Shown: piece by piece, positions 1,514 to 47,882 of the stretch
Layout: every line of letters starts with the position of its first letter
How positions within the stretch are numbered: position 1 is the first letter of the stretch
Assembly (NCBI GenBank): GCA_019347575.1
Contig: JAHWKY010000001.1
Span: 1 to 64,000, forward strand
Direction: 5' to 3'
DNA length: 64,000 bases
Origin: Actinomycetota bacterium
GTDB lineage: Bacteria > Actinomycetota > Nitriliruptoria > Nitriliruptorales > Nitriliruptoraceae
The notes under the pieces: generated by a model
What the model saw: the letters and a program-made list of their open reading frames with translations, nothing else
Databases searched by the model: none
What the model was told of the DNA's origin: nothing
Program-made: the position numbers and the translations under genes

Positions 1514-3982
1514 ATGGCCGACCAACCGCTGCCGACCGTCACGGTCGTCGTCATCAACCTCGACGGACGCGACTACCTCGAGCCGTGCTTGCGGTCGGTG
1601 CTCGACCAGGACTACCCCGAGGATCGTGTCGAGGTGATCCTCATCGACAACGCCTCCACCGACGGGTCGGTCGAACTCGTGCGCGAGCGGTTCCCGAGCG
1701 TGCAGGTCATCGTCAACGACACCAACACGGGCTTCGCTCCCGCGGTCAACCAGGGAGCCCGCGCGGGTAGCGGCGAGTACCTCGCGCTGATCAACAACGA
1801 TGCCGTCGCCGACCCGGCGTGGTTGCGCGAGCTGATCACCCCGATGCTGTTCAACGAGCGCGTCGCGTGCACCGGCGGTCTGGTGCTGGACGCCGAGGGC
1901 CTCACCGTCGACTTCGCGGGCGGGGCGGCGGGCTGGCACGGACACGGCTTCCCGATCGGGCACGGCGAACCGCCGCCTGAGGACCTGCGGCAGGGACCCA
2001 CGCTGTTCGCGACCGGCTCGTCGTTGGCGACCCGTCGCAAGCTCTTCCTCGAGATCGGTGGGATGGACGAGGACTACTTCGCGTTCTTCGAGGACGTCGA
2101 CTACGGCTGGCGGTTGTGGATCCTCGGCCACGACGTGCTGTTCATCCCCACCTCCATCCTCTACCACCGACACCACGGCACCATCGAGCGGTTCGGCGAC
2201 GCACGCGAGCGCTACCTGCTCGAACGCAACGGGCTCGCCACGCTGTTCAAGAACTACGAGGACGACCGACTGGCACGGACGTTCCCGGCCGCGACGATCC
2301 TCTCGATGGTTCGGGGCGTGGAGGAGGAGGGCACCGACCTCGGCGACTACCGCATCACCGAGCGCGCAGCGGGCACCCGTCCCGAGCCGATCATCACCGA
2401 CCTCACCGGCGCACACCTCGCCGCCATCCGCGACTTCAGCCTCGAGCTGGACAAGTGGCGCGAGAAGCGCGACTTCGTCCAGGCGCGGCGCCGTCGCGCG
2501 GATCGAGAGCTGCTGCCGCTGTTCCGCCACCCCCTCATCAGCAACATCCCGTCGGAGCGCTACCACGCCATCCTCGACCAGTTCGTGCGGACCTTCGACC
2601 TGCTGTCCGCCGCATCAGCGCAGCAGAAGATCCTGATCGTCTGTGCCGACCGCCTCGGCGAGCGCATGGCTGGTCCCGCGATCCGGGCGTGGGAGATGGC
2701 CAAGCTGCTGGCGCGCGAGCACGAGGTCGTCCTCGGCACGCTCGCGGAGCCCGGCCTCACCAGCGACCGTTTCGGCGTCGAGCACCTCACCCCCGACAAG
2801 ATGCGTGAACGCATCGCGTGGTCCGAGGTCATCGTCACCCAGGGCGTGACGATGTGGTGGTACCCGGAGATGGTCAAGAGCAGCGCGGCCATCGTCATCG
2901 ACCTGTACGACCCGTTCCACATCGAGGCCCTGGAGCTGCGCCGCCACCAGCCCCTTCAGGAGCGCTGGACCTTCGCCAAGAGCGATGTGCAGGTCGTCAA
3001 CCAGCAGCTCGAGCGCGGTGACCTGTTCCTCTGCGCCTCCGAGAAGCAGCGAGACTTCTGGCTCGGTCAGCTCGCGTCCCTCGGCCGGATCAACCCGGCC
3101 ACTTACGACCAGGATCCCGATCTGCGGGCGCTGCTCGAGGTCGCGCCGTTCGGACTTCCTCCGGAGGCTCCGGTTCAGGAGCGCAGCGCGATCAGGGGTG
3201 CGGTTGAGGGCATCGGTCCCGACGATCTCGTCTTCCTGTGGGGTGGCGGGATCTACAACTGGTTCGATCCGTCGACGCTGATCCGCGGGATGGCCCAGGC
3301 AGCCGAGGAGGATCCGCGCCTGCGCCTGTTCTTCCTGGGCACCGCGCACCCCAACCCCGAGATCCCCGCGATGTTCCGTGCGGGGGAGGCGTTGCAGACC
3401 GCGCGATCGCTCGGCGTGCTCGACAAGCACGTGTTCTTCAACGAGGGCTGGGTCCCGTACGAACAGCGTGCCGACTGGCTGCTCGACGCCGACGTGGGTG
3501 TGTCGACGCACTTCCTCCACATCGAGACCGAGCTCAGCTACCGCACGCGCATCCTCGACTACATCTGGGCCGGTCTGCCGATCCTGTGCACCGAGGGCGA
3601 CTCGCTGTCCCGGCTGGTCAGGACGCACGACCTCGGCGAGGTCGTCCGGGCCGAGGATCCCGAGGACGTGGCGCGGGGCATCCTCGCCCTCGCCGATGCG
3701 GGACGCCGCTCCGACATCCAGGGACGCATCGCCGAGCTGGCGCCGGAGATGACGTGGGAGCAGGCGCTGCAACCGCTCGTGTCCTTCTGTCGGCTCCCTC
3801 GACGCGCCCCGGACCTCGATCCGGCGGCACGGAAGCGCTACGTCGACCGCGGGCCCGCCGGGATCTTCCAGCGCAACCCCGCGGATCTGGCCAGACGGTT
3901 CGTCGCGGTCGCGCGGGAGCGTGGATGGTCCACTGCCGCGCAGATGGCCAAGCAGACCGTCCGACGCCGGTTGGGCCGCTGA
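1514..3982 (+). CDS. Bifunctional glycosyltransferase, GT2 plus GT4-like domains
   Basis: An 822-residue cytoplasmic or peripheral enzyme. Residues about 10-290 form a GT-A family 2 domain resembling rhamnosyltransferases: TVVVINLDGRDYL at the start, a nucleotide-contacting IDNASTDGS, then NTGFAPAVNQG and the DxD-like INNDA. After a helical linker (about 290-375), residues about 380-740 form a GT-B, GT4-like domain beginning KILIVCADR and containing GGGIYNWFDP and FNEGWVPY. The fusion implies two sequential sugar additions, probably in envelope polysaccharide synthesis given the CWB2 protein and ABC exporter downstream. Substrates cannot be read from the sequence. The ATG at 1514 is chosen because the GT2 fold starts there; in-frame upstream sequence overlaps the divergent gene. 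Confidence 0.85.
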   Translation: MADQPLPTVTVVVINLDGRDYLEPCLRSVLDQDYPEDRVEVILIDNASTDGSVELVRERFPSVQVIVNDTNTGFAPAVNQGARAGSGEYLALINNDAVADPAWLRELITPMLFNERVACTGGLVLDAEGLTVDFAGGAAGWHGHGFPIGHGEPPPEDLRQGPTLFATGSSLATRRKLFLEIGGMDEDYFAFFEDVDYGWRLWILGHDVLFIPTSILYHRHHGTIERFGDARERYLLERNGLATLFKNYEDDRLARTFPAATILSMVRGVEEEGTDLGDYRITERAAGTRPEPIITDLTGAHLAAIRDFSLELDKWREKRDFVQARRRRADRELLPLFRHPLISNIPSERYHAILDQFVRTFDLLSAASAQQKILIVCADRLGERMAGPAIRAWEMAKLLAREHEVVLGTLAEPGLTSDRFGVEHLTPDKMRERIAWSEVIVTQGVTMWWYPEMVKSSAAIVIDLYDPFHIEALELRRHQPLQERWTFAKSDVQVVNQQLERGDLFLCASEKQRDFWLGQLASLGRINPATYDQDPDLRALLEVAPFGLPPEAPVQERSAIRGAVEGIGPDDLVFLWGGGIYNWFDPSTLIRGMAQAAEEDPRLRLFFLGTAHPNPEIPAMFRAGEALQTARSLGVLDKHVFFNEGWVPYEQRADWLLDADVGVSTHFLHIETELSYRTRILDYIWAGLPILCTEGDSLSRLVRTHDLGEVVRAEDPEDVARGILALADAGRRSDIQGRIAELAPEMTWEQALQPLVSFCRLPRRAPDLDPAARKRYVDRGPAGIFQRNPADLARRFVAVARERGWSTAAQMAKQTVRRRLGR

Positions 3983-4054
3983 GCCGCCGCCGGCGGGCCC
4001 GTAGGTGCCACCTGAGGATCTCGGCCCCACCTGTTACTCTTCGTACCTCTCACG

Positions 4055-4190
4055 TCGGGGCTAGACCCGGCGCGGGAGGCGGGGAAGGGTCTCGGAACCG
4101 AGGCGTCGAACCACCTCGCTGGTAACCCGTCTGCCGTTGGGGCAGACGACCGAGAACCGGCAGTTGCGCCACGGGGGCGTGCCCGAGGAG
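4055..4190 (+). promoter_or_regulatory. Structured 5' leader of the CWB2 gene (possible riboswitch)
   Basis: The gap between the glycosyltransferase and the CWB2 gene is dense in potential structure: a perfect 8-bp stem CGTCTGCC/GGCAGACG with a 5-nt loop (4128-4148), a CTCG/CGAG mini-hairpin (4091-4102), and GC-rich blocks on both sides. Unpaired patches such as GGTAACCCG and CCGAGAACCGGCAG loosely recall the c-di-AMP (ydaO-yuaA) riboswitch, which precedes cell-wall genes in actinobacteria. The match is partial, so no class is assigned. Confidence 0.35.
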
Positions 4191-4198
4191 GGCCCATC

Positions 4199-7100
4199 TT
4201 GTCCAACATCACTTCGCTCCGTCCGCTGGCCGCCGTGGTGGCGGCTGCACTGGCGGCGACGCTGCTGATCGCCCTGCCATCACGATCCGATGGCGCCACG
4301 ACCATCGACTACCCCAACACCGAGCGCATCCCCGGAGATGACCCCGTCGAGATCGGCGTCAACATCTCCCAGCGCCTGTTCGGGAACGACGGGGCGCAGG
4401 CGGTCGTCCTGGCTCGCAAGGACAAGTTCCCGGACGCCCTGGGCGGCAGCACCGTCGCGGCCGAGTTCGGTGGCCCCGTCCTCTACACGACCAGCACCGA
4501 CCTCGACACCGCGACCCGCAACGAGATCGACCGCGTGCTGGCGCCGGGTGACAACGTCTACATCATGGGCGAGGTCGCAGCCATCTCGGTCGAGGTGGAA
4601 CAGGAGCTGCAGGCACGCGGGTACCGCACCCCGCGTCTGGGGGGCCAGACCCGTGTGGAGACCGCGGCCGAGGCCGCCTTCGCGGTAGGTGCTGGTCCGG
4701 GCCGTACCGCCATCATCGCGCGTGCCTTCGACGACCCCGGCGCCATCGAGAGCACCCAGGGATGGGTCGACTCCGTCAGCTGCGGTGGGTACGCCGCGTT
4801 GAGCGAGACACCGGTCCTGCTGACCGACAAGAACCGCGACCCCCAGCGCATCCCCGAGGCGACCCGGTCGATGTTGCAGCGGCTGGGGATCTCCGAGGTC
4901 TTCATCTGCGGTGGCCCGGCTGCCGTACCCCAGGCACACGCTGACGACATCGCGGCGATGGGCATCAAGGTCAACCGCTTCGCCGGAGCGACCCGCATCG
5001 AGACCGCGGTCGACGTGGCGAGCAACCTCTGGGGGTACCGGACCACCGACGGCAAGGCGTTCATCATCGTCAACGGCTGGGGCGCGAACTTCGCCTACGG
5101 CCTCGCCGCCTCCCAGCTGTCGCGGCGTGAGGCCGCACCCATCCTCCTCGTCAACCGCACCGAGCCGACGAGCTGCTCGGGCAACGAGCAGTCCCGGGCG
5201 ACCCTCTGCTACCTCGCGCAGCACAACCCGTCGATCTCCGGCCTGATCGCCGTCGGTGACGTGAGCCTGGTCGACGATGTCGTCTTCCGGGCAGCGGCCG
5301 AGGCCGGCGGCCTCGAGGAGGACAACACCGCCCCAGCGCGCCCGTCCAACGTCAGCGCGACGGACCGGCCCGAGGACGACGGCACCAACGTCAACGTCAA
5401 GTGGGCCGCGTCGACCGACGACAACCCCGGACCCATCACCTACAACGTCTACTTCCGCAACAACGCCGACGACGAGGCGCTCACGCGCGCGAACAGCACG
5501 CGGCGCACCACCAGCAAGACCAGCCTGACGATCACCGGGCTGACCGAAGGCCAGAGCTACGACGTTGCCGTCGACGCGGTCGACCAGTTCGGCAACCGCT
5601 CCGGCCTCTCCGCGGTCGCCAGCGCCGGTCCCCTCGAGGACGAGGTCCCCGCCGCCCCGAGCGAAGCACCCACCGCCAAGAACACGACGACCGGCGTGGG
5701 CCTGAGCTGGAAGAGGGCACCGGAGGCCGACGCCGCCGCCTACCGCATCGAACGCGCCGAGCCGACGGGCGGCGGACCGATCCAGGAGCCCTGCGACAGC
5801 CCCTTCCTGTCGTGGGCGCACGTCAAGAACGTGTCCCCACGGAGCACCACCAGCTTCATCGACACGACCGCTAAGGACGGCATCCGCTACTGCTACCGCT
5901 ACCGCGTGCTCGACACCTCCAGCCCCGCCAACGAGAGCGGCACGTCACCGGTGACCGAGTGGACGTTCGACAAGCAGAACCCCGACCAGAACGCGCCCGC
6001 CGGCACACCCTCGATGTACGCGGTGAACATCGACCAGGACCGCAGGCTCGTCGGCACCACCAACAACTCGCGCATGCGCGCGGGAACGACGCTCCGTGTC
6101 GACGCCGTCGTCCCGGCCGGCGCCTACAGCGCGTCCGAGACCCTCGGTCGCATCGCCGTCTACGACGGCGACACCCGTCTCTCGGCCGTGGACGACTCCG
6201 ACGAGTTCGATCCCACCGGCGCCGAGCAGATCGTCAGCGTCTTCGTGGCCCTCAACGCCACCGGCGAGCGGTCGATCTCGGTCGCGATGCAGGACGCGAC
6301 CGGCAACGAGGGCACCCGCTCCACGGTGTGGCGGCTCGACGTCAACGCGCAGCACCTGCCCACACCGGTGATCGAGTCGATCGCCGCGGTCAACACCGAC
6401 CCGGCGGACCTGCTCGACCAGCGCATCCCCGACGCCCCCGGGATCGACGCGACCCCGCGCATCGTGGTCGGCAACCTCGATCCGTCCGCTGGCAACCAGC
6501 GGCTCCAGGTCTACCGCAACGACGAGGTCGACGCGTCGTTCTGCCTCACCCCGAACCAGATGTCGGGTGGGCAGTTCGTGATCAACGCGGGACCGGGCGA
6601 CAGCGACTACACCCTCCCCGGCGGCGCCCACCCGCTGCTCGTGACGGCGCAGCCGGCGGTGTTCACCTCGCCGTCGACCTGCATCGCCGACCCGATCCAG
6701 GGTGCGGCCCGTCGCTCGGGTGACTCCAACACCGTGCGCTACCTGTTCGAGACCGCCGAGTTCGGGATCCTCGCCGTCGATCCGCCGAACAACGCGTTCG
6801 ACCCCTACGGCTTCCGCGACGGCGGCGCCGTCCCCATCGAGGTCGTGTTCAACAAGGACGCGACCACGACGTCCCGCGTGACGCTGTCGGGACCCGGGAT
6901 CGCCACGCCCATCACGGTGGAGAACGACGGCGCGGACGGCGACAGCACCGCCGGCGACGAGCGCATCGACTTCGACGCGCCGCCGCTCCAGACCGGCCAG
7001 TTCGAGCTCGACATCGTCGCGAGCCCCCTCGACGGCATCGGCAGCGGCGTCTCCACCACGACCACCTTCACGGTGGGCTTCATCCACCTCGTCCACGGCT

Positions 7101-35274: not shown

Positions 35275-37857
35275 ATGATCGTGGCGGATCCACAGGTAGG
35301 GGCCTTCGTAGGGCGCGACGACGTCCTGACGCAGCTGCTGGAGGCTTTCCGGGAGGCGTCGGCCGGCCGGACCCGTGCGGTGCTGTTGACCGGCGACCCG
35401 GGGATCGGCAAGACCCGCGTCATGGAGGAGTTCGCCTCCCTGCCCGCGCTCGAGGAGGCGTGTGTCCTGTGGGGAGGGGCGTGGGCGGGTGGCGCGCCGG
35501 CGTTCTGGCCGTGGATCCAGATCGTGCGTTCCCACCTCGGCAGGCGTGGCGAAGCCGCCACCCTCGAGAGGTTCGGCTCCGGGGCGCGATGTGTCGCCGA
35601 CCTGATCCCGGCGTTGCGGACCTCGCAACCCGCTGGGGACGGCGACCCGGGTCACGGGCGGTTCGAGCTCTTCGACGCGTTCGCGACGTTCCTGGCGAAC
35701 ACCGCCCATGCCGAGGGTGCCGCGGTCGTCGTTCTGGACGACCTGCACCTGGCGGACGAGTCCAGCCTGCGGCTCGCCGAGTTCGTCATCGGGGCGGTTC
35801 GGACAGCTCCCCTGCTGCTCCTCGGCTCGTGCCACGAGAGCGGCGCCCAGCCAGGCGGAACCGCCGACGCACTGGGCCGGTTCGCAACCTCCGCGACCCG
35901 CGTCGCACTGGGCGGCCTGACGGAGGCCGAGCTGTCCCAGCTGGTCGCGGCGCGGACGGGCACCCCGCCGGACGCCCGGGTCGTCGCGCGGTTGCACGCC
36001 CTCACCGACGGCAACCCGTCGTTCGCAGACGCGCTGTTGGCGACCGCGACGGGCCCGGACACCCCGCTTCGGCTACCCGACCAGCTCCTCAGCGTGGTGC
36101 GGAGCCGGCTGGCCGGTCTGTCGGACGCGGCCCAGGCCGTCCTCGGCTGGGCCGCCGTGCTGGGTACGGAATTCGGGCTCGAGCCGCTGCCCTACCTGGC
36201 GCACCTGCCGGCGAGGGACCTCGTTGCTCTGCTGGCGGAGGCGCGAGCCGCGGGCGTCGTGCGCGACGCTGACCAGGCCGATCGCTACCGCTTCTGCCCT
36301 GCGCTCGTGCGGGACATCGTGTACGACGGCCTCGGACCCGACCGCCGCGTGGCGATGCACGGCCGTGTGGGTGACGTCCTCGAAGGACTCGAGCGCGGCG
36401 ACCGGGCGGAGCGGCTGCCCGCGCTCGCGCACCACTACCGCCTCGCGGCCCCCCGGCGCGGAACCGAGAAGGCGTTGCGCTACACGTTGGAGGCGGCTCG
36501 CACCGCCGCCCGTCTGCTCGCCCACGAGGAAGCCGCCGGGGGGTACCAGCAGGCCCTGGACCTCCTGGCGGCCAGCCAGCCCGCCGAACGGGCGCGACTG
36601 CTCCTGCTGCTCGCGGACGAGCAGTGGCGCGCCGGGCGCACCGACCTCGCCCTCGACACTCTGGAGGAGACCGCACGGCTGGCCCGACAGCTCGGGGACG
36701 GTGAGATGCTCGCTCGGGCGGCGCTGCGGATGGGCGGTGGGCGCATCGAGTCGGGCGCCGTCCGGCCCGGACTCGTCAAGCTGCTCGAGGAGGCCCTGGC
36801 CGGAGTGGACGGCGAGGCGACGGCGCTCCGGGTGCGGCTCCTGGGACGCCTTGCCGTGGCGTTGTACTTCACCGACGACTACCTCCGCCGGGACCGCCTC
36901 AGCGCCGAGGCGGTCACCCTCGCCCGCAAGCTGGATGATCCCGCCGCTGTCGCGTCGAGCCTGAACACCCGACACTTCGCGATCTGGGGGCGCGGAACCT
37001 TGGCAGAGCGGTTGGCCCTGGCGGAGGAGGCGACACGCCTGGCCCAGGACGCCGGCGATGCGGAGCTGGTGCTCGAGGCGCGAACGTGGAGGGTCGTCGA
37101 CCTGCTGGAGTACGGCGACCGCGCCGGCCTGGACGCTGAGGTCGCCCGCTACGTCGAGGACGCCGAGGCGCTGCGGCTGCCCGTCTACCGCTGGTACGGC
37201 CTGCTGTTCGCGACGATGCGCGCGCTGCTCGACGGCCGCCTCGACGCTGCGGAGGAGCTCGTCCCCCGAGCGGTCGCTGCCGGCCGGGCGGCGGGGATCG
37301 CCAGCAGCGAGCAGTTCGGTGCTGTCCAGCTCTACCTGCTGCGGCGCGAGCAGGGGCGTCTCCCCGAGCTGGCCGAAGCCGTCGAGCAGTTCGCTGCGGC
37401 CTACCCGGCGTTGCCGGTGTGGCGTTGCGGGTTCGCGCTGCTGCTCTGCGAGACCGGCCGCGCTGCCGATGCCATCGAGATTCTCGACGAGCTGGCCGCC
37501 GACGGGTTCGGGCGGCTGCCGCCGGACGGGAACTGGCTCGCGTCGGCGGCGCTCTTGGCGGAGGTGTGCGTCCGTGTCGGCGCGACCGGGCACGCGCAGC
37601 GGCTCTACGAGCTCCTCCTTCCCCACGCCGACCAGCACGTCGTCGTCGCCACCGCCGTCGCCTACCTGGGCGCCGTGTCGCACTACCTGGGGCTGCTCGC
37701 GGCGGCTCTCGGCGAGCCCGACGCGGCCGCCGCCCACTTCGCCGACGCACGGCATCGTCACGTCCAGATGCGGGCGCCAGCATGGCTCGCCCGCACCGAG
37801 GAGGCGTCCGCCGCTGCCGCGGTCGTTCGCCTGCCCGAGGACTCGGCGCGGCGGTGA
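35275..37857 (+). CDS. STAND/AAA ATPase with TPR-like repeats, no DNA-binding output domain
   Basis: An 860-residue protein. The N-terminal ATPase (about 10-280) opens with FVGRDDVLTQLL, Walker A GDPGIGKT (40-47) and Walker B VVVLDDLHLAD (about 146-156), the pattern of LuxR-LAL and adenylate-cyclase-associated AAA_16 regulators. From about 400 to 850 it is alpha-helical, TPR-like. Relatives normally end in a LuxR HTH; here the chain ends without one. The stop overlaps the GTG of the SARP gene (GTGA), so the two are probably made together and may form a heteromeric signalling complex. ATG 35275; GTG 35281 also possible. Confidence 0.85.
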   Translation: MIVADPQVGAFVGRDDVLTQLLEAFREASAGRTRAVLLTGDPGIGKTRVMEEFASLPALEEACVLWGGAWAGGAPAFWPWIQIVRSHLGRRGEAATLERFGSGARCVADLIPALRTSQPAGDGDPGHGRFELFDAFATFLANTAHAEGAAVVVLDDLHLADESSLRLAEFVIGAVRTAPLLLLGSCHESGAQPGGTADALGRFATSATRVALGGLTEAELSQLVAARTGTPPDARVVARLHALTDGNPSFADALLATATGPDTPLRLPDQLLSVVRSRLAGLSDAAQAVLGWAAVLGTEFGLEPLPYLAHLPARDLVALLAEARAAGVVRDADQADRYRFCPALVRDIVYDGLGPDRRVAMHGRVGDVLEGLERGDRAERLPALAHHYRLAAPRRGTEKALRYTLEAARTAARLLAHEEAAGGYQQALDLLAASQPAERARLLLLLADEQWRAGRTDLALDTLEETARLARQLGDGEMLARAALRMGGGRIESGAVRPGLVKLLEEALAGVDGEATALRVRLLGRLAVALYFTDDYLRRDRLSAEAVTLARKLDDPAAVASSLNTRHFAIWGRGTLAERLALAEEATRLAQDAGDAELVLEARTWRVVDLLEYGDRAGLDAEVARYVEDAEALRLPVYRWYGLLFATMRALLDGRLDAAEELVPRAVAAGRAAGIASSEQFGAVQLYLLRREQGRLPELAEAVEQFAAAYPALPVWRCGFALLLCETGRAADAIEILDELAADGFGRLPPDGNWLASAALLAEVCVRVGATGHAQRLYELLLPHADQHVVVATAVAYLGAVSHYLGLLAAALGEPDAAAAHFADARHRHVQMRAPAWLARTEEASAAAAVVRLPEDSARR

Positions 37858-40800
37858 CGCTCGTCCTGGACCGGCCACGGCTCATCGCGCGGCTGGAGGC
37901 CGCGGCGGAGTTCCGCCTGACGACCGTGGTCGCCGGTCCCGGCGCCGGGAAGTCGACGCTCCTCCACAGCTGGGCCTCGGCCCGTCCTGTCGTGTCGTGC
38001 ACCCTCATCGCCGCCGACCGCCAGCCCAACCACCTGGCCCACCGGCTGATGGTCGGCCTCCAGCCGCACGTCGGGCAGCTGCCCGACGAGCTGGCGATCG
38101 CGGTCACCGGAACCGATGGCCCGGCGCCGGACGCCGACGACCCGGCACGGGCTCGCACGCTCGGCACGCTGCTCTGTTCGGCCTTGGACGAACTGCTGAC
38201 GCGCGACCTCGTGCTCGTGTTGGACGACGCCGACCTCGTCGATGCGTCTGGTCCGGCCGCGCAGCTCATCGAGACCATCGTCCGGCAGGCCCCTGCACTG
38301 CTCCACGTCGTCGTGTCCGGACAGCGACCGCCCCCGTTCCCGATCGACAGGATGGACCAACCGCGAGGCGTGACCGCCATCACGGAGGCTGACCTGGCGT
38401 TCACGGGGGACGAGACCTGTCACGTGCTGACACGCTTGGCCGGCGATGACGCCGGGACGGTCGCCGCAGCCGCCCAGGCCGCCACAGCAGGCCATCCGGC
38501 TGCGGTGCGGCTGCTGGCCGTGGTACTGGCCAACCAGCCGGTCAGCGACTGGGCGGACTGCGTGTCCACGTTGCCCGCGGCCCGGGACGACCAGCTCCGC
38601 GAGCTGGCCGTCACGGCCTACGAGGCCCAGCCGCTGCGGCCGCGAGAGCTCGTGCGGACCGTCGCGTCACTGCCTGCCTTCACCGTGCCGCTGTGCGAGC
38701 ACCTCGGGCAGGCAGGAGCCGAGACGACCGTTGCCGAGCTCGTGCGCGATGGCCTCTTCGTCCACGCCGTCGGCGACCGCTCCGGCTGGTTCACCGTGAG
38801 CCAACTCGCCCGCCAGTGGCTGGATCGACGCCTATCGCTCGACGTCTGGGAGGCGCAGGACCTCCACCTGCGGGCGGCCGCGTGGTTCGAGACGGTGGAC
38901 GCGTTCCAGGAGGCGCTGCAGACGCTCGCGGCGATAGATGCAGCGGAGCCGATGGCGGCCCTGCTGAGCCGCCGCGCAGCGGCACTGTTGCGCGTCGTCG
39001 ACGTCAAGACCATCGTCGACGCCGTCGACGGCCTCCCGACGGTCGGGCGTCCACCGCATCTCGAGGCGCTGGTCGGGGAAGCCCTCCAGCGTGCGGGGGA
39101 GTGGGACGACGCGCTGGCGGCGTTGGAGCGCGCCGCCGGGGACGCACCCGAGATCCCCGCTGGCGTGGCCTGGCGGCTCGGGCTGGTGCACTACCTGCGC
39201 GGCGAGCTGGACGAGGCCCTCGGCGCCTACGCCCGCGCACGGATCGGCGGCGATCCGGGCGACGAGGCCTGCGTCCTGGCGTGGACGGCCTCGGTCCACT
39301 GGCTGCGGGGAGACATCGCCACGAGCCGGCAGCTCGCGGGGCGGGCGATGACTCTGGCGGAAGGTGCCGACGACTCGCGGGCACTGGCGTTGGCCCACAC
39401 CGCGCTGGCCCTGCTCTCCGCGAACGACGGCGACCGTGCAGCCAACCACGCCCATTACGCGCGTGCCCTGCACCACGCCGAGCGTGCCGGGGACCTGCTC
39501 CAGGTCGTGCGGATCCGCGGCAACCGGGCATCGTTGCACCTGGAGGAGGGGGCGTTCGAGGACGCCATCGCCGAGGCGGACGTCGCCATCAGCCTGGCGG
39601 ACGTGGCCGGGCTCGCGTCACTCCGCGCGCTGGCGCTCACGAACCGCGGCGAGGCCCAGTTCCGTCTCGGCCGCCTGGAGCAGGCCACCTGCGACCTCGA
39701 GGACGCCCGTGCGCTCTACGAGCAGGTCGGATCCCGCGGCGTCGCGTACCCGCTCCTCAAGCTCGCGGACGTCCATCGGGAGCGGGGCGACCTCGCGCTG
39801 GCCCGCGCCGAGTACGAGGAGGCCATCCGCCACGCGGAAGCGGCCGAGGACCGGCAGTGCCTGGTCCCCGCGCTGGCGGGGTTGGCGGAGGTCCGTGCCG
39901 GCGAGGACCCCGCCGCGGCGCGACGACTCGCCGAGCGCGCCCTCGCCGCCGGCCCCGGGATCGGCTACACCCGAGCCGCGCTGGCGGCCGCCCGCCTGGC
40001 GCTCAGTCGGGACGACCCCGACGAGGCCGCCCGCTGGTCGCGTCTCGCCGCCGATGACGCCGCGCGGCGCCGCGACCGCAGCGGGCTCGCCGAGGCGCTC
40101 GCGGTGCAGGCGGTGGCGTCGCAGCCGCCTTCGGTCGAGCTGCTCGCCCAGGCCCAGCGGATCTGGCAGCAGATCGGTGACCCGGTCGGCGAGGCACGCA
40201 CCGCCTCGACCCTCGCCGACCTCGTCGGGGACGGCTCCGCGAGCAAGGCGGCGCAGGCCCGCTTGGCCGAGCTGGGGTCCCGGCGCCCAACGCTGGCTGG
40301 ACGCGTGCCGCAGGCCCCCCCGCCGCTGGAGTTGCTGACGCTCGGTGGCTTCCGGTTGCTGCGCGACGGCGAGACCGCGCCGGCGACCGCATGGCAGTCC
40401 AAGAAGGCACGCGACCTCGTGAAGTTCCTCATCGCCCGGCGGGGCCACCGGACCCCCCGCGACGTCGTCTTCGATGCTCTGTGGTCCGAGGAGGATGGCG
40501 GCGCCATGGGCAACCGCCTGTCGGTGACCATGTCCACCGCGCGGGCGGTGCTGGACCCGGACAAGCGCTTCCCGCCGGACTACTACGTGGGGGCCGACAA
40601 GGAGGCGGTGTGGTTGGAGATCGACCACTGCGCCATCGACGTGGAGCGGTTCCTCGCCGACGTGGCGACCGGGCTCGCCGGGCGGCGCCGGGGCGAGCCC
40701 GCTGCGGCTGCCGTCCTCGCGCGCGCGGAGGCGCTCTACGTCGGGGACGTCTTCGAGGAGGATCCCTACGAGGACTGGACCGTGTCACTGCGGGAGGAGG

Positions 40801-41111
40801 CCCGCGCCGCCTACATGGCGACCGCCCGCGCGCTGGCGGAGGACGCCGCGGCGGCCGGCGAGCACGACGTCGCCGGCCGCTACCTGCTGCGGCTGCTGGA
40901 GCGTGACCCGTACGACGAGGGTGCGCACCTCGCGTTGGTCGGCTGCCTGACCGCGGCAGGCCAGCATGGCGAGGCTCGCCGCTGGTACCGCACCTACTGC
41001 GCGAGGATGGCTGAGCTCGACGTCGAGGCGGCACCCTTCCCCGGGGTTGCCGGCTCGCGCGTGCCTACCTCCCCTTCGCCTGGTGGCCGGGCGCGTCGGG
41101 CGGCGGGCTGA
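37854..41111 (+). CDS. STAND ATPase with C-terminal SARP (BTAD) transcriptional activator domain
   Basis: A 1085-residue regulator. The N-terminal MalT-like ATPase has Walker A GPGAGKST (about 26-33) and Walker B LVLVLDDADLVD (about 117-128), followed by a long TPR region (about 350-800). The last 260 residues (from about 823) are a SARP unit: an OmpR-type winged helix, LTLGGFRLLRDG and KKARDLVKFLIARRGHRTPRDVVFDALW, then a bacterial transcriptional activator domain ending YDEGAHLALVGCLTAAGQ. In AfsR-type proteins the SARP part is N-terminal; here it is C-terminal. SARPs bind direct repeats with 11-bp period, and two such sites occur just downstream. GTG start overlaps the upstream ATPase gene. 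Confidence 0.88.
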   Translation: MTLVLDRPRLIARLEAAAEFRLTTVVAGPGAGKSTLLHSWASARPVVSCTLIAADRQPNHLAHRLMVGLQPHVGQLPDELAIAVTGTDGPAPDADDPARARTLGTLLCSALDELLTRDLVLVLDDADLVDASGPAAQLIETIVRQAPALLHVVVSGQRPPPFPIDRMDQPRGVTAITEADLAFTGDETCHVLTRLAGDDAGTVAAAAQAATAGHPAAVRLLAVVLANQPVSDWADCVSTLPAARDDQLRELAVTAYEAQPLRPRELVRTVASLPAFTVPLCEHLGQAGAETTVAELVRDGLFVHAVGDRSGWFTVSQLARQWLDRRLSLDVWEAQDLHLRAAAWFETVDAFQEALQTLAAIDAAEPMAALLSRRAAALLRVVDVKTIVDAVDGLPTVGRPPHLEALVGEALQRAGEWDDALAALERAAGDAPEIPAGVAWRLGLVHYLRGELDEALGAYARARIGGDPGDEACVLAWTASVHWLRGDIATSRQLAGRAMTLAEGADDSRALALAHTALALLSANDGDRAANHAHYARALHHAERAGDLLQVVRIRGNRASLHLEEGAFEDAIAEADVAISLADVAGLASLRALALTNRGEAQFRLGRLEQATCDLEDARALYEQVGSRGVAYPLLKLADVHRERGDLALARAEYEEAIRHAEAAEDRQCLVPALAGLAEVRAGEDPAAARRLAERALAAGPGIGYTRAALAAARLALSRDDPDEAARWSRLAADDAARRRDRSGLAEALAVQAVASQPPSVELLAQAQRIWQQIGDPVGEARTASTLADLVGDGSASKAAQARLAELGSRRPTLAGRVPQAPPPLELLTLGGFRLLRDGETAPATAWQSKKARDLVKFLIARRGHRTPRDVVFDALWSEEDGGAMGNRLSVTMSTARAVLDPDKRFPPDYYVGADKEAVWLEIDHCAIDVERFLADVATGLAGRRRGEPAAAAVLARAEALYVGDVFEEDPYEDWTVSLREEARAAYMATARALAEDAAAAGEHDVAGRYLLRLLERDPYDEGAHLALVGCLTAAGQHGEARRWYRTYCARMAELDVEAAPFPGVAGSRVPTSPSPGGRARRAAG

Positions 41112-41173: not shown

Positions 41174-41195
41174 ACCCGAAGGCCACCCGAAGGCC
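41174..41195 (+). promoter_or_regulatory. Candidate SARP operator, perfect 11-bp tandem repeat
   Basis: ACCCGAAGGCC occurs twice back to back (41174-41184 and 41185-41195). The ATG of the small gene follows after exactly 19 nt. Heptamers at 11-bp period, one helical turn, are the known SARP recognition pattern. A second copy with the same 19-nt spacing lies upstream of ggt. Confidence 0.55.
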
Positions 41196-41214
41196 TGGCG
41201 GCATGATGGCGGTC

Positions 41215-41478
41215 ATGGAGACGTTCATCGTGCGGATCTGGTCCCCGGCAGGCGACGTGGCGGGTGGGGACGGCGGCCTGCACGGCACCGTCGAGCGCGT
41301 GGGGTCGGGCGCGGCCGTCCCGTTCCGCAGCAGCGGGGAGCTGCTCGAACTCGTCACGTTCCGCTCGGCGCCCGACGCCGACGACGTGATCCGCCCGTTG
41401 AGCCTCCTGCAGGACCCGGGGCCGATCACCGGGGTCGCCCCGCGACCGGACCAGCGTGACGACAGCAGCGTTCCATGA
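41215..41478 (+). CDS. Small conserved hypothetical protein
   Basis: An 87-residue protein, METFIVRIWSP at the start, then GLHGTVERVGSGAAVPFRSSGELLELV and a disordered tail. It matches in outline a common small actinobacterial family with no known function. No signal peptide or metal motif. ATG 41215 is chosen over 41203/41206 because ggt begins with the same ATGGAGA at the identical distance from its own operator; neither has a Shine-Dalgarno sequence, which suggests leaderless transcription from a SARP-dependent promoter. Confidence 0.65.
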   Translation: METFIVRIWSPAGDVAGGDGGLHGTVERVGSGAAVPFRSSGELLELVTFRSAPDADDVIRPLSLLQDPGPITGVAPRPDQRDDSSVP

Positions 41479-41520
41479 CCTTGCGGGACGGGTGTCCCCT
41501 GAGGTGGCGGGGAGGCGTCC

Positions 41521-42936
41521 ATGCGTGAGTCCGACTGGCAAGGAGTTCTCGACGCGGTCCGCGAACCGGCACTGGCCTACCTACGGTCCCTACCCGACCG
41601 TCGCGTCTACCGGCCGACGGACCCAGAGGAGATCCTGGCGTCGATGGGCGGTCCGTTGCCGTCCGAAGGCGTTCCGGCCACAGAGGTGATCGCGGCGCTG
41701 GCCCGCGATCTTGAACCCTTCATCGTCGCCCACGCGTCGGGACGGTACTTCGGGTTCGTCATCGGCGGGTTGCACCCCGCCGCTTACGGCGCGGAGATCC
41801 TCACCGCGACGTGGGACCAGAACGCGGGCCTCTACGCGGTCGCGCCCGGCGTGGCGGTCGTCGAGGAGGTGGCGGCGGGGTGGCTGCTCGACCTGCTCGA
41901 CCTGCCCCGGGATGCCTCGGTGGGGTTCGTCACGGGTGGGCAGATGGCGAGCTTCACCTGTCTGGCGGCCGCACGTGATGCGGTGCTGCGCCAGGTCGGG
42001 TGGGACGTCGAGGCGGACGGTCTGCAGGGAGCCCCGCCGGTCCACGTCGTGGTGAAGTCGGAGAAGCACAGCACGGTCGCCAGGGCGTTGCGCTTCCTCG
42101 GGCTCGGCTACAGCCGTGCGGTGGAGGTTGCCTCCGACGCCGGATCACGGATGGACGCCGAGGACCTCGACCGGACGCTGGAGAACCTCGACGGTCCCAC
42201 CATCATCTGCGTCGAGGCGGGCAACGTGAACACCGGGTCTTTCGATCCGTTCCATGCCGTGGCCGACGCCGCCGAGGCTCACCGGAGCCGAGACAACCCG
42301 ACGTGGGTCCACGTGGACGGCGCCATCGGCCTGTGGGCGCGAGCGTCCTCCGGGCAGCGGCCCATCACCGCAGGCTTGGACCGGCTGGACTCGTGGTCGA
42401 CCGACGCGCACAAACTGCTCAACGTCGCCTACGACTCCGGCATCGCCGTGTGCCGGGACCGCTCCGCGCACCGCGCCGCCATGAGCGTACAAGCCAGCTA
42501 CCTCGTCCACAGCGACGAAGGCGGTCCCCGTGATCAGTTGGACTGGAACCCGGAGTTCTCGCGCAGAGCACGCGGACTGGGGGTCTACGCGACGCTGCGC
42601 TCGCTGGGGAGCCGCGGCGTCGAGGACCTGGTCGACCGTGTCTGTGCTCTGGCCCGCCGTTTCGCCACCGCTATCGGCGAGAGCGGCAAGGCACAGATCG
42701 CCAACGACGTCGCCTTCAACCAGATCCTGGTCCGATGGCTCGCCGACGACCAGGACCATGACGCGTTCACCGACCGGGTCGTCAACCGCGTCCAGGAGGA
42801 TGGCACCGCCTTCTTCAGCGGCACCACCTGGAACGGCATGCGCTTGATGCGCATCTCGGTGTCCAACTGGGCCACGGACGAGGAGGACGTCGACCGCGCG
42901 GTCGATGCGCTCCTGCGGTGCGCTCGGGAGGGATGA
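41521..42936 (+). CDS. Group II pyridoxal-phosphate-dependent decarboxylase
   Basis: A 471-residue PLP enzyme of the aromatic-amino-acid/glutamate decarboxylase group. YFGFVIGGLHPAAYGAE and the TGGQMASFTCLAAAR segment precede the cofactor site; the invariant WVHVDGAIG Asp and the Schiff-base Lys298 in STDAHKLLN are present. It should decarboxylate an L-amino acid to an amine, though relatives act as aldehyde synthases; the substrate cannot be assigned. ATG with GGGAGG about 6 nt upstream. It lies 42 nt after the small gene and is probably co-transcribed with it, under the SARP-type operator. Confidence 0.85.
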   Translation: MRESDWQGVLDAVREPALAYLRSLPDRRVYRPTDPEEILASMGGPLPSEGVPATEVIAALARDLEPFIVAHASGRYFGFVIGGLHPAAYGAEILTATWDQNAGLYAVAPGVAVVEEVAAGWLLDLLDLPRDASVGFVTGGQMASFTCLAAARDAVLRQVGWDVEADGLQGAPPVHVVVKSEKHSTVARALRFLGLGYSRAVEVASDAGSRMDAEDLDRTLENLDGPTIICVEAGNVNTGSFDPFHAVADAAEAHRSRDNPTWVHVDGAIGLWARASSGQRPITAGLDRLDSWSTDAHKLLNVAYDSGIAVCRDRSAHRAAMSVQASYLVHSDEGGPRDQLDWNPEFSRRARGLGVYATLRSLGSRGVEDLVDRVCALARRFATAIGESGKAQIANDVAFNQILVRWLADDQDHDAFTDRVVNRVQEDGTAFFSGTTWNGMRLMRISVSNWATDEEDVDRAVDALLRCAREG

Positions 42937-42958
42937 CCTCGAGTCGCGGGCGAACGCC

Positions 42959-42980
42959 ACGCGAAGGTCACCCGAAGGCT
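42959..42980 (+). promoter_or_regulatory. Candidate SARP operator upstream of ggt
   Basis: ACGCGAAGGTC (42959-42969) is followed directly by ACCCGAAGGCT (42970-42980): the same 11-bp-period repeat as at 41174-41195, slightly degenerate. The ATG at 43000 follows after exactly 19 nt. No convincing -10 hexamer is visible between them. Confidence 0.5.
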
Positions 42981-42999
42981 GCGGCGCACCCTGCACGTC

Positions 43000-45039
43000 A
43001 TGGAGAGTCCGATGGGTGACGCGAAGGAGACCGCCGTGCGACCGTCAGGACAGCCCGCAAGGGCAGAGCGGTTCGTGAGCAGCCGACCGCTCCGGCGGAA
43101 CCCGTACCTGCTCGCCGCGATGGCGGCACTGGTTGCGGTCACCTCGATGACCGCTGCCTCAGCGGACCCGGCCGGCGAGGGGAGCAGGTTCCGCTCTGCC
43201 GTCACGAGCAGCGGAGGCGTGGTCTCCTCCCTGTCGACGCAGTCGGCCCGCGCGGGGATCGGCATCCTGGACGCCGGCGGCAACGCGATCGATGCCGCTG
43301 TGGCGACGGTGTTCGCGGTGGGCGTCACCCGGCCGGAGTTCTGCGGCATCGGCGGCGGGGGCTTCCTCGTCTACCGAGGCGCCGACGGCGAGGTCGCATC
43401 GCTCGACTTCCGGGAGACCTACCCGCTCGCCTCAGGCCCTGACACCTTCTTCATCCCTGGGATGCACCGGGACGGCACGACCGGCCTCGAGGGCGCCGCC
43501 GGGCACATGGCCGTGGGCGTCCCCGGCACCGTGGCGGGTATGGCCGCCGCGCTCGAGCGGCACGGGTCGGGGCGGTTCTCCCTGGCCGAGGTCATCGCGC
43601 CCGCCGAGCGGCTCGCCCGCGAGGGGATGACCGTCAGCCAGCAGTTCGCCGCGTTGAGCACGCTGTTCCACCAGCGGCTCTCCTACTACGAGGAGACCCG
43701 CAGCATCTACCTGCTGGGCGGCGCGACCCCGTACCCGCCCGGATCCACGCTCGTACAGGCGGACTACGCCAGGTCGCTCGCCCTCGTCGCCGCCTTCGGG
43801 CCCGAGGCGTTCTACGCCGATGCCGAGTACCCGGCGTTCGACTACAACGGCTATCGCTACGAGGCCGGACCCAGCATCGGGCGGCTCATCGTGCGGGACA
43901 TGGAGGGCGCCGAGGAGGCGGCCAGGACCAACCCCGTCATCGTGGCCCAGTGGGGGCCCGAGCCCAACGACATCGGCCTGCTGACCACCGAGGACTTCTC
44001 CACCTACCGAGCGATCTGGCGCGAGCCCCTCACGGGGACCTACCGGGGCCACGAGGTGATCTCGATGCCGCCGCCGACCTCGGGAGGCGTGCAGACGATC
44101 GAGATGCTCAACATCCTGGAGGGCTTCCCGCTCGGCTCTCCGGGCTGGGAGCACTCTTCGGCCAACCACCTCCACGCCATGGCCGAGGTGCAGAAGATCG
44201 CCTGGGCCGACCGCAACGCCCACATCGGGGACCCCGACTTCGTCGACGTGCCGGTCGAGCAGCTCACGGGCAAGGGCTACGCGAACAAGCGCCGGGCCGA
44301 GATCGGGTTCGGGGAGGACTCAGCGAGGCTCTACGAGGCCGGAGAGTTCGAAGACGAGGAGCCGCACGGAGAGGCTTCCGGCTCCGGCGGTGGGCACACC
44401 CTCCACGTCTCGGTGGTCGACGCGGCCGGTAACGCCGTGTCCGTCACATGCAGCACCGGCTTCGCCTTCGGCAGCGCGGTCGTCGCCCCGGGCACCGGCT
44501 TCACGCTCAACTCCTCGATCATCATGCCCGGGCCCCCCGGCAGCCCCGACGAAGCCCAAGCGGGCAAGCGGAGCGAGTCCCGAACGACGCCGGCGATCGT
44601 CGCCCGTCATGGCGTTCCCGTGCTCGTCACCGGAGGGGGCGGCAGCAGCACCATCCCCCGGGGCGTCGTGCAGAACATCGTCAACGTCGTCGACTTCGGG
44701 ATGGACATCGCCCAGGGGATCGACGCCGCGCGGGTCGATGCCGTCGTGGCGGACGACGGCGACACGGAAGCGCTGGAGCTGAGCATCGAGGCCCACGATC
44801 CGCGGGACCCCGGGATCCAGCACCCCCCCGGGTCCGCGCCGCGCATCTCCGAAGAGGTGCAACGAGAACTAGAGCGCCGGGGCCACACGCTCGTGCACCG
44901 CGGGGAGTACGACTTCCAACCGCACCTCGCCTCAGCGGGCGTGGACCAGATCACCGGGCGGCGGCTGGCGGTGTCGGACCCCCGGGAGGAATGGGGCTCC
45001 TGCGCTCAGGCCGATGTCCCGCCAACCACGTGCCCGTAA
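43000..45039 (+). CDS. ggt: Gamma-glutamyltransferase precursor (secreted)
   Basis: A 679-residue N-terminal-nucleophile hydrolase. A hydrophobic segment at about 36-53 is the signal peptide or anchor. The family start GGNAIDAAVATVFAVGV and GIGGGGFLVYR are clear. Autoprocessing should occur before Thr467 in GGHTLHVSVVDAAGNAVSVT, and the oxyanion and glutamate-binding GGGGSSTIPRGV is present. It hydrolyses or transfers the gamma-glutamyl group of glutathione-like compounds outside the membrane; actinobacteria that use mycothiol may instead process gamma-glutamyl amides. ATG 43000 fits the operator spacing; ATG 43012 has GGAGAG upstream and is the alternative. Confidence 0.9.
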   Translation: MESPMGDAKETAVRPSGQPARAERFVSSRPLRRNPYLLAAMAALVAVTSMTAASADPAGEGSRFRSAVTSSGGVVSSLSTQSARAGIGILDAGGNAIDAAVATVFAVGVTRPEFCGIGGGGFLVYRGADGEVASLDFRETYPLASGPDTFFIPGMHRDGTTGLEGAAGHMAVGVPGTVAGMAAALERHGSGRFSLAEVIAPAERLAREGMTVSQQFAALSTLFHQRLSYYEETRSIYLLGGATPYPPGSTLVQADYARSLALVAAFGPEAFYADAEYPAFDYNGYRYEAGPSIGRLIVRDMEGAEEAARTNPVIVAQWGPEPNDIGLLTTEDFSTYRAIWREPLTGTYRGHEVISMPPPTSGGVQTIEMLNILEGFPLGSPGWEHSSANHLHAMAEVQKIAWADRNAHIGDPDFVDVPVEQLTGKGYANKRRAEIGFGEDSARLYEAGEFEDEEPHGEASGSGGGHTLHVSVVDAAGNAVSVTCSTGFAFGSAVVAPGTGFTLNSSIIMPGPPGSPDEAQAGKRSESRTTPAIVARHGVPVLVTGGGGSSTIPRGVVQNIVNVVDFGMDIAQGIDAARVDAVVADDGDTEALELSIEAHDPRDPGIQHPPGSAPRISEEVQRELERRGHTLVHRGEYDFQPHLASAGVDQITGRRLAVSDPREEWGSCAQADVPPTTCP

Positions 45040-45065: not shown

Positions 45066-46622
45066 ATGAGCAGCATCCGTTCGATGCAACGCTGGGTTGG
45101 CATCCTGGTCCTGGGGATGCTCGGGTGGCCGCTGGTGGCGGCCCCCACCGCGGCGGCTGACTGTGAGGACGCCGCTCTCGCACCCGGCGACGAGGCGTTC
45201 TGCGCGGCGGTCAACGTCGACCGCGCCCAGGTTCCCGGAGCCGACTTCTGCGGCGTCGCCGGCGACTGCCCGCAGTGGCAGATCACGGTCGCGGACGGCG
45301 GTGCCCGGCTGCGTGTCGCGCTCAGCGCGGTGTTCCAGGAGGCCGGGGACGTCCGGCCCTGGGCGGACTTCAACGGCTCGGCGCCCGAGATGATCTTCCG
45401 ACTCCAGCTCCTCGACGAGGCAGGTGGCGTGGTCGCGGAGGACTCCACCGGCGAGACCTTCACCGCCTACGGCGTGGAGGTGTTCCTGGTACCGCCGGAG
45501 GCTGGCGTGTACACGGTCCGGGTGATCCCCGAGAGCGTGGTCGATATGGCGTTCCGGCTGCGCGCCAAGCTTGAGGTCGATGGCCACCACGAGGCCGACC
45601 ACCACCGGCGCGGCGCAGACCGCACGGTGCTGACCCCGAACCTGCGGGCGATCCCGCCGTTCGAGTTCAACTTCTACCCCCCCAGCGCGACGTACGGGCC
45701 CGGCGCGCCGGTGGCGGCGCCACAGGCCTCGTGCATGGTGGAGGAGATCGAGGAGGCCGTCGAGGAGGGTCGCCCGGCGCCGAGGCTGTGCCTCCGCTAC
45801 TCGATGGGGTTCGAGAACGCCGGTGACGGCATCTTCTGGCTGTCGGTGTTCTGCCCCGCGTGCCAGCACTACTACCCGCACACCAAGCCGATCGGGGACA
45901 CGATCTGCTCGCTCTTCGGCTGCGCGATGGGCGAGGTCGTGGGACAGCCCTGGCAGGTCGGCGAGGACGCCCGTGACTGGCCACTGACGCAGATCCGCTT
46001 CTACGCCGACGGGAGCTGCTGCCAGGTCGAGACGTTGGGATCGGCCGGGGTGGGGCGCTTCCACGCCGCGCACGGGCACCTGCACTACCAGAACGCGTAC
46101 CTCTTCGAGCTGTTCCGGGTCAACGACGAGGGCTGGAGCCTGGGCGACCCGCGGCCCAGGCAGCTGGAGCTGGTCGGCCCGGGCAGCAAGCTCGGCGTCT
46201 TCCCCGGCGACGAGATGATGTCGGGCTGGGACCGCTTCTACCAGTACCCGCGGAGCGGGGCCTGCCCGCAGAGCCCCCCCGAGCATCCCGACCACTGCGG
46301 GCCGGGCATGGGCAACTCGCCGCTGCTCGGACTGGGCGAGCCGAAGGTCAACGCCGGTTGGGGCGACATCTACGAGTGGAACCGGGGCGGCAACTACGTC
46401 GACTTCCCGACCGACGAGCTGGGCCAGCCGCTCGCGGGCTACTACGTGCTACGTGGCACGAGCGACCCCGATCGGGTGATCATCGAGACCGATGAACGCG
46501 ACAACCACAGCTACGGCTTCATCCACGTATCCGGCGACGGGACCGTAGAGCTGCTCGAGCGCGGCTACGGCACGTCACCGTGGGACGGGAGCACGGAACT
46601 CGTCACGGTGGTTCCGGGCTAG
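45066..46622 (+). CDS. Secreted lysyl-oxidase-like protein
   Basis: A 518-residue exported protein with a signal peptide (about 1-31, ending AAPTAAA). A beta-sandwich region (about 45-165) precedes a lysyl-oxidase-like domain (about 330-505). The domain has the histidine cluster RFHAAHGHLHYQNAYLFEL, which corresponds to the copper ligands, and the later WGDIYEW ... YVDFPTD ... YYVLRGTSDPD ... ETDERDN pattern of PF01186. Cys pairs suggest disulfides. Bacterial lysyl oxidases deaminate lysyl or amine substrates; activity here is inferred. ATG with AGAGGGG upstream, 26 nt after ggt, so probably the same transcript. Confidence 0.75.
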   Translation: MSSIRSMQRWVGILVLGMLGWPLVAAPTAAADCEDAALAPGDEAFCAAVNVDRAQVPGADFCGVAGDCPQWQITVADGGARLRVALSAVFQEAGDVRPWADFNGSAPEMIFRLQLLDEAGGVVAEDSTGETFTAYGVEVFLVPPEAGVYTVRVIPESVVDMAFRLRAKLEVDGHHEADHHRRGADRTVLTPNLRAIPPFEFNFYPPSATYGPGAPVAAPQASCMVEEIEEAVEEGRPAPRLCLRYSMGFENAGDGIFWLSVFCPACQHYYPHTKPIGDTICSLFGCAMGEVVGQPWQVGEDARDWPLTQIRFYADGSCCQVETLGSAGVGRFHAAHGHLHYQNAYLFELFRVNDEGWSLGDPRPRQLELVGPGSKLGVFPGDEMMSGWDRFYQYPRSGACPQSPPEHPDHCGPGMGNSPLLGLGEPKVNAGWGDIYEWNRGGNYVDFPTDELGQPLAGYYVLRGTSDPDRVIIETDERDNHSYGFIHVSGDGTVELLERGYGTSPWDGSTELVTVVPG

Positions 46623-46631
46623 TGCCACGGT

Positions 46632-47852
46632 TCAACATCGTCGGGGCGGGGGGTGGGTGCGGATCTGGTGTCCGGTGGGCGACGTGAAGGTCGCGATCCC
46701 GCTGTGGGGGTCGTAGGTGGCGCTCCAGCCCCCGGTGGTGTGCATGGCGTGGTGGCTGTCGTGGCCTTTGCAGGCGGGCAGGGTGCTGTCCCATTCGGTT
46801 TCGCCGTGGTCGGCCCAGGGGATGACGTGGTCGGCTTCGGTCCACGCCACCGGCCGATCACAGAAGGGGTAGCGGCAGTGGGTGTGGATGTGCTCCAGGA
46901 GGGGGCGGAGCCAGTCAGGGATGGTGCGCAGGGAGCGTCCGAACGCGACCGGGCGGTAGGGGCCGGCGGTGAGGATGACGTTGGTGAGGAACCCCTCGTC
47001 GTGCAGGCCCCACTGTGCGAGCAGGTCGCGGGCGAGTTGGTCGTCGATGGTGCCGGTGCGGCGCAGACGGGATTCGAACGTGGCGGCGGCTTCTCGGCCC
47101 AGCAGGGTCCACAGGTCGATCATCAGGTTGACGTGGGGACGGGCGCCGTTCTTGGTCTCCAGCGTCGCGGCGGCGGCGCGGCGCAGGATCTCGGCGAACG
47201 CGTCGTGGCGGATCTGGGCGGCGGTGCGGCGCTGCTCCTTGGGCACGTCCTTGCCGTCGGGGGTGGCCAGCGTCTCGATCAGCTGCGCCAACAGCTCGTG
47301 CACCTCGGGCACGAGCGTGCCGTGCAGGTCACCGAGCCCGTCGATGCCGGGGTGGACGGTCACCTCGCGGCGCTCGTCGGGCCCCGGCCCCATCGGCTCC
47401 GCGTCGGTGCCGTCAGGGTCGGTGTGGTCGCGGATGAGCTTGACCGCGCGGCGCACGTCGGTGGGGGTGCCGTGGCGGGCGAGGGTGACCAGGGCGGGTT
47501 CGGCTTCATGCAGGGCGGGGTAGCGGCGGGTGGTGGTGGCGCGCACGATCACATCGACGTGCTCGGAGGAGACCTGCCCCGCCTGGTAGGCGTCGCGGAG
47601 CTGGTCGTAGTGCCGCAGCCGGGTTGCGCGGCGGGTCAGCCGCGACGCGGCAGCGCCGTCCATGCCGGTGCGGGCGGCGTACCACGACGCCAGGGTGACG
47701 GCCCCGTCCGCCCGGTAGGCCCCGGCGCGTTGGGAGCGGTCCAGCAGCCGCGACTGCTGGGCCTGGAGGCGGTTGAGGTGGGTGTGGATCTCGACGGTGG
47801 CGTCGAGCACGTCACGGTCGATCTGATCGAACAGATCCACCTCAGCCAGCAC
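46632..47852 (-). CDS. DUF222 / HNH endonuclease domain protein, second copy
   Basis: A 406-residue paralogue of the protein ending at 45. DUF222 covers about 1-290; the HNH part (about 330-385) shows CRYPFCDRPVAWTEADHVIPW, then an LPACKGHDSHHAMH helix. The frame continues upstream of the GTG at 47852 as plausible protein (ALTQLRAALDV) until an in-frame TAG at 47883-47885. The promoter lies 270 bp upstream, so the gene may be a truncated remnant of a longer one, or translated after reinitiation. No ribosome site is seen before the GTG. Confidence 0.85.
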   Translation of the reverse strand: MLAEVDLFDQIDRDVLDATVEIHTHLNRLQAQQSRLLDRSQRAGAYRADGAVTLASWYAARTGMDGAAASRLTRRATRLRHYDQLRDAYQAGQVSSEHVDVIVRATTTRRYPALHEAEPALVTLARHGTPTDVRRAVKLIRDHTDPDGTDAEPMGPGPDERREVTVHPGIDGLGDLHGTLVPEVHELLAQLIETLATPDGKDVPKEQRRTAAQIRHDAFAEILRRAAAATLETKNGARPHVNLMIDLWTLLGREAAATFESRLRRTGTIDDQLARDLLAQWGLHDEGFLTNVILTAGPYRPVAFGRSLRTIPDWLRPLLEHIHTHCRYPFCDRPVAWTEADHVIPWADHGETEWDSTLPACKGHDSHHAMHTTGGWSATYDPHSGIATFTSPTGHQIRTHPPPRRC

Positions 47853-47882
47853 ATCCAGCGCGGCGCGTAGCTGGGTCAGGGC

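Follow-up and report, generated by a model that had tools for sequence, protein, structure and literature searches.

The closest described system is AfsR of Streptomyces coelicolor, a large SARP that also contains ATPase and TPR parts and activates the small-protein gene afsS (PMC10936776). The afsS promoter has two 11-bp direct repeats at about -40 to -19, centred at -29.5, a -10 element of CACTGT and a weak or no -35; published SARP promoters have a repeat period of 11 or 22 bp, and 8 bp separate their 3' repeat from the -10 (PMC10936776). The SARP-LAL regulators PimR, SanG and PolR also join a SARP domain to a large ATP-binding half, and they bind cooperatively to two or three direct repeats with an 11-bp period (PMC5930380). 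We analyzed a 64,000-nucleotide stretch of an Actinomycetota bacterium of the Nitriliruptoraceae (contig JAHWKY010000001.1, positions 1 to 64,000; hereafter the window), in which paired 11-bp repeats precede two genes next to a large SARP gene at 37854-41111. Features of the window lie on the plus strand unless stated otherwise. We propose that the repeats are operators of this SARP and drive leaderless transcripts of a small gene and of the gamma-glutamyltranspeptidase gene (ggt), a reading to which the sequence data lead us to give a probability of roughly 0.87. The assignment of SARP operators, leaderless starts and two targets is well supported computationally, while DNA binding, activation rather than repression and the transcription start sites are what we infer from it. 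This regulatory circuit was absent from the papers searched, and it resembles AfsR-AfsS of Streptomyces; the breadth of its conservation, the reversed domain order of the regulator and the small-protein family are new.

The original prediction had placed the repeats at a fixed 19 nt from two start codons, and we recovered both sites letter for letter. Predicted operator 1 (41174-41195) consists of two perfect 11-bp units, ACCCGAAGGCC twice. Predicted operator 2 (42948-42980) has three units, GGGCGAACGCC ACGCGAAGGTC ACCCGAAGGCT, of which the pair ACGCGAAGGTC/ACCCGAAGGCT occupies 42959-42980 and the weaker third unit GGGCGAACGCC lies in register at 42948-42958. Exactly 19 nt separate the repeats from ATGGAGA at both sites (ATG at 41215 and 43000). 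A -10-like CANNNT hexamer was found at an identical position in the two, CATGAT at 41202-41207 and CACCCT at 42987-42992, each with 8 bp between it and the last CGAAGG and 7 nt between it and the ATG. Three features had not been part of the original prediction: the third unit at site 2, the two hexamers and a third copy elsewhere in the genome (contig C66). The sites thus show the direct-repeat period of SARP promoters, and the distance from CGAAGG to CANNNT was 8 bp at all three genomic sites. Since these numbers fit the published rules for SARP promoters and afsS, transcription would by analogy be expected to start at the ATG or 1 nt before it. For PimR the heptamer, CGGCAAG, is set apart from the -35, and the gene controlled encodes a PAS-LuxR regulator within an antibiotic cluster (PMC5930380). 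The box spans the spacer and the -35 region, where a repressor could also sit, and the SARP might bind there and block the promoter. We consider such repression very unlikely, since the -10 hexamers are weak with no -35 visible, as in SARP-activated promoters, and since the arrangement is the one found at afsS, a gene that its SARP activates (PMC10936776).

The genome-wide repeat search that the original prediction had proposed gave a result well beyond chance. CGAAGGN5CGAAGG occurred exactly four times in the 4.89-Mb genome, and the full pattern including spacer and hexamer (CGAAGGNNACCCGAAGGN8CANNNT) identified three exact sites, at 41177, 42962 and C66:1462-1492, all with an ATG at equal distance. 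The next-best matches to the full pattern had 3 mismatches and numbered 7, as compared to 2 for a reversed-pattern control. At the C66 site the ATG is 21 nt from the last CGAAGG, as at the other sites, and what follows the box is a frameshifted remnant of the small gene at 41215 (tblastn, 55% over 22 amino acids). Locus L009 on C66 of this genome, G000 (minus strand, 1385-1503 and 2387-5767), comprises the box copy with the remnant and, about 900 bp away, a paralogue of the window's AAA_16 protein encoded at 35275 (36% over 853 amino acids); no SARP gene was found on contig C66. An exact half-match at C2:11607 and a one-mismatch match at C1:224081 were rejected as sites, since they fall within a coding sequence or at its border and do not have the -10 layout. 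The exact form of a stricter pattern was present, among 198 genomes of the phylum, in this genome only. This exact search returned a single genome because the spelling of the box drifts while its layout persists, and conservation therefore had to be tested by position.

When we examined genomes of the same family, the SARP orthologue was followed by two to three units of ACCCGAAGGNC in four (G009, G020, G021 and G033) and by two to three units of ACCTGAACNNC in two others (G022 and G016), and at all of these loci a -10-like hexamer and a small open reading frame (ORF) of the same family came after the repeats. A SARP-domain scan of 84,980 species' genomes gave 80 loci. The small ORF was located 27-142 bp past the SARP stop codon in Nitriliruptoria, Acidimicrobiia, Sporichthyaceae, Nonomuraea, Pseudonocardia and Solirubrobacterales, and it was near the SARP gene in other lineages too, one of them binned as Chloroflexi. 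The sequences upstream of it shared the layout and differed in spelling (ACCCGAAGG, ACCTTAAGCC, ACCTGAAC), with 8-9 bp from repeat to -10 in most relatives. Over 60 bp of 21 non-redundant promoters, autocorrelation at 11 bp was 0.421 versus 0.280 in shuffles (z 10.6) and was still 0.409 without the sites of this genome; the only other lags above z 2 were 12 (3.8) and 22 (2.1). A matrix built solely from boxes of the window's class was applied to positions -60 to +140 relative to the SARP stop and identified a box plus -10 at 20 of the 74 held-out loci, where 1% was expected. Short repeats abound in GC-rich DNA, and 1.15 matches to the repeat pattern with up to 3 mismatches are expected in the window, so that the repeats might be a chance or coding artefact with meaningless spacing; three exact sites genome-wide with identical spacing, and a layout conserved across lineages at the z value above, make this scarcely credible. 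A search of five relatives for further targets, allowing up to 3 mismatches, gave mostly control-level results, the exceptions being the known sites of G020, G021 and G033.

We also compared the box with the regulator. When a tree was built from SARP domains, those of G022 and G016, which belong to the window's own family, clustered with the Nonomuraea SARPs at 100/99. All four of these members had TGAAC boxes (ACCTGAAC) and LN or LR in the recognition helix, which has LS in the CGAAGG group. On these sequences the box tracks the phylogeny of the regulator and not the host species, as expected if the regulator reads the box. The sites could alternatively be operators of another OmpR-fold regulator, either a further SARP or a response regulator of the PhoP type, which also uses 11-bp direct repeats, with the SARP gene adjacent by chance. 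Such overlap has precedent in Streptomyces, where PhoP and AfsR bind overlapping sites (PMC10936776), and several relatives encode another SARP behind the small ORF. We nevertheless regard this alternative as unlikely, since the box remains beside this SARP gene across orders with a spelling that tracks its clade and since the window has no second SARP gene beside the box. These second SARP genes were seen at L070, L071 and L072 (G017, G020 and G021), and the SARP domain they encode is N-terminal, as checked with Pfam in G017 only; in G017 and G020 the genes are followed by DnaK-like genes and, further on, GTPase-like genes.

Assignment of the repeats to the adjacent SARP as its operators thus draws support from SARP promoter geometry, conservation across orders and a box type that follows the regulator clade. 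That the transcripts are probably leaderless is likewise supported in most members by a constant 6-8 nt from the -10-like hexamer to the start codon, which leaves no room for a ribosome-binding site. The grouping of two targets in one regulon fared less evenly: the three exact sites genome-wide speak for it, but only the small-gene target is conserved.

Several observations weigh against the proposal. No such box was found downstream in 54 of the 74 held-out SARP homologues, indicating that not all relatives use this layout, and many of the 20 matches came from related genera (Kribbella, Nonomuraea). At two loci (L096 and G163/L092) the small ORF is present, but no clear box with a normally spaced -10 was seen. 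At least 30 nt separate the -10 from the start codon in G022 and G016, so that those transcripts would not be leaderless. The ggt site was seen in this genome only and is not known to be conserved elsewhere, and the correlation with the recognition helix is not made of independent events.

The gene behind the box was not always the same. Kribbella SARPs have the same box layout, and the ATG located about 6 nt past the -10 belongs to the gene for an unrelated small protein (about 120-130 amino acids) in which M23-peptidase-like motifs were seen by eye (L100, L102, L105, L115 and L148), and in Cellulomonas and an uncultured actinomycete other apparently leaderless genes follow the box. The adjacent operator is thus more conserved than its target. 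L105 is labelled Streptomyces sp. SID13031 and groups inside Kribbella, so the label may be wrong. At L073 (G016) a second box, ACCTGAACCCC ACCTGAACGGG with CACAGT, lies near 11524 on the minus strand, where the small ORF has its 3' end; it precedes apparent ABC-transporter genes that may be a further target.

The regulator (37854-41111; 1085 amino acids) is predicted to comprise a MalT-like STAND ATPase (residues 4-395), TPR and a C-terminal SARP domain of winged helix and BTAD (residues ~823-1065; 40320-41050) with a putative recognition helix, GNRLSVTMSTARAVLDP. Pfam reported BTAD at residues 928-1061 (E 1.3e-13) and did not report Trans_reg_C in the regulator. A profile of residues 823 onward matched the structures of EmbR (3.8e-8) and AfsR (4.2e-7), covering the whole SARP domain and reaching residues 15-243 of EmbR and 27-252 of AfsR (full-length numbering); the domain therefore has the OmpR-type winged helix followed by BTAD that is found in SARPs. 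The NCBIfam model of MalT matched residues 4-395 (E 1.1e-27) with a score far under the NCBIfam cut-off, and the protein is for this reason classed as MalT-like and not as MalT itself. MalT of Escherichia coli, a STAND regulator, has the same order of ATPase, TPR and C-terminal DNA-binding domain, the latter being a LuxR helix-turn-helix in MalT and a SARP domain here. On the other hand, the large SARPs described in the literature have an N-terminal SARP domain, a central NB-ARC and C-terminal TPR (PMC10972967; N-terminal SARP domain also in PMC10936776), an order seen in AfsR, and PimR likewise has its SARP domain at the N terminus (PMC5930380). Relative to these proteins the predicted domain order is reversed, with the SARP domain after ATPase and TPR and a MalT-like N-terminal half. 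No description of the reversed architecture was found in the literature searched, a search that most subscription papers lay outside. Upstream lies an AAA_16 ATPase gene (35275-37857; 860 amino acids) whose last 4 nt are also the first 4 nt of the SARP gene, so that the two probably form one operon.

The first gene behind site 1 (41215-41478) encodes an 87-amino-acid protein (METFIVRIW...), the member of the conserved target family in the window, and its mRNA is probably leaderless. Proteins of this family have 53-87 amino acids and the pattern MxTFVVRIW...L.G.VE.V..G....F.....LL..L. The window's protein had no match in Pfam or NCBIfam. Its predicted structure has a beta-beta-beta-alpha core with a pLDDT (predicted local distance difference test) near 90, and in a fold search of the PDB even the best hit was not significant (E 1.0). 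The absence of a family match, this predicted fold and the apparently leaderless transcripts distinguish the system from AfsR-AfsS. A gene for a pyridoxal-phosphate (PLP)-dependent decarboxylase (41521-42936; Pfam Pyridoxal_deC, E 7.4e-34) starts 42 nt past the small ORF, with GGGGAGG upstream. Site 2 precedes ggt (43000-45039; Pfam G_glu_transpept, E 3.7e-114), also probably leaderless, which is followed by a gene for a 518-amino-acid protein (45066-46622). Since the genes at 41521 and 45066 have space for ordinary ribosome-binding sites, they would be read as second genes of transcripts 1 and 2, respectively. The label lysyl-oxidase-like, given to the gene at 45066 in the original prediction, did not hold, as Pfam returned no family for its product even at E <= 10. 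Three partial paralogues of this protein occur in the same genome (contigs C22, C35 and C77 of G000), and it has few relatives in the class. Beyond it, long ORFs overlap on both strands at 46632-47870, and the minus-strand ORF resembles an HNH endonuclease by eye.

In the mechanism we propose, the C-terminal SARP domain would bind two (or three) adjacent 11-bp units on one face of the DNA at about -41 to -20. Sitting beside the weak CANNNT -10, it would recruit RNA polymerase as AfsR does at afsS. Transcripts would start at the ATG or 1 nt before it (41215 and 43000), making both mRNAs leaderless; the first would encode the small protein and the PLP decarboxylase, and the second ggt and the following gene. 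The MalT-like and TPR parts would presumably gate this activity in an ATP-dependent manner. Switching on of the adjoining small gene may be the ancestral, conserved part, with the ggt operon as a lineage-specific second target. The gene's position and the AfsR-AfsS parallel lead us to guess that the small protein acts in feedback on the regulator or passes its signal on. More tentatively, and with less than even odds, MalT-like STAND regulators with a C-terminal SARP domain, an adjacent tandem 11-bp operator and a leaderless gene for a beta-beta-beta-alpha small protein of this role might form a hitherto undescribed phylum-wide module of actinobacteria, to which other operons such as ggt were recruited by gaining a box.

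With these results, a class of large actinobacterial regulators absent from the papers searched can be assigned a predicted DNA motif, a conserved target next door and a predicted start of transcription, which make binding and activation directly testable. A small-protein family without an entry in Pfam or NCBIfam is named. The findings suggest that the AfsR-AfsS arrangement, in which a big SARP sensor drives a small-protein gene, also occurs far from Streptomyces with the domain order reversed.
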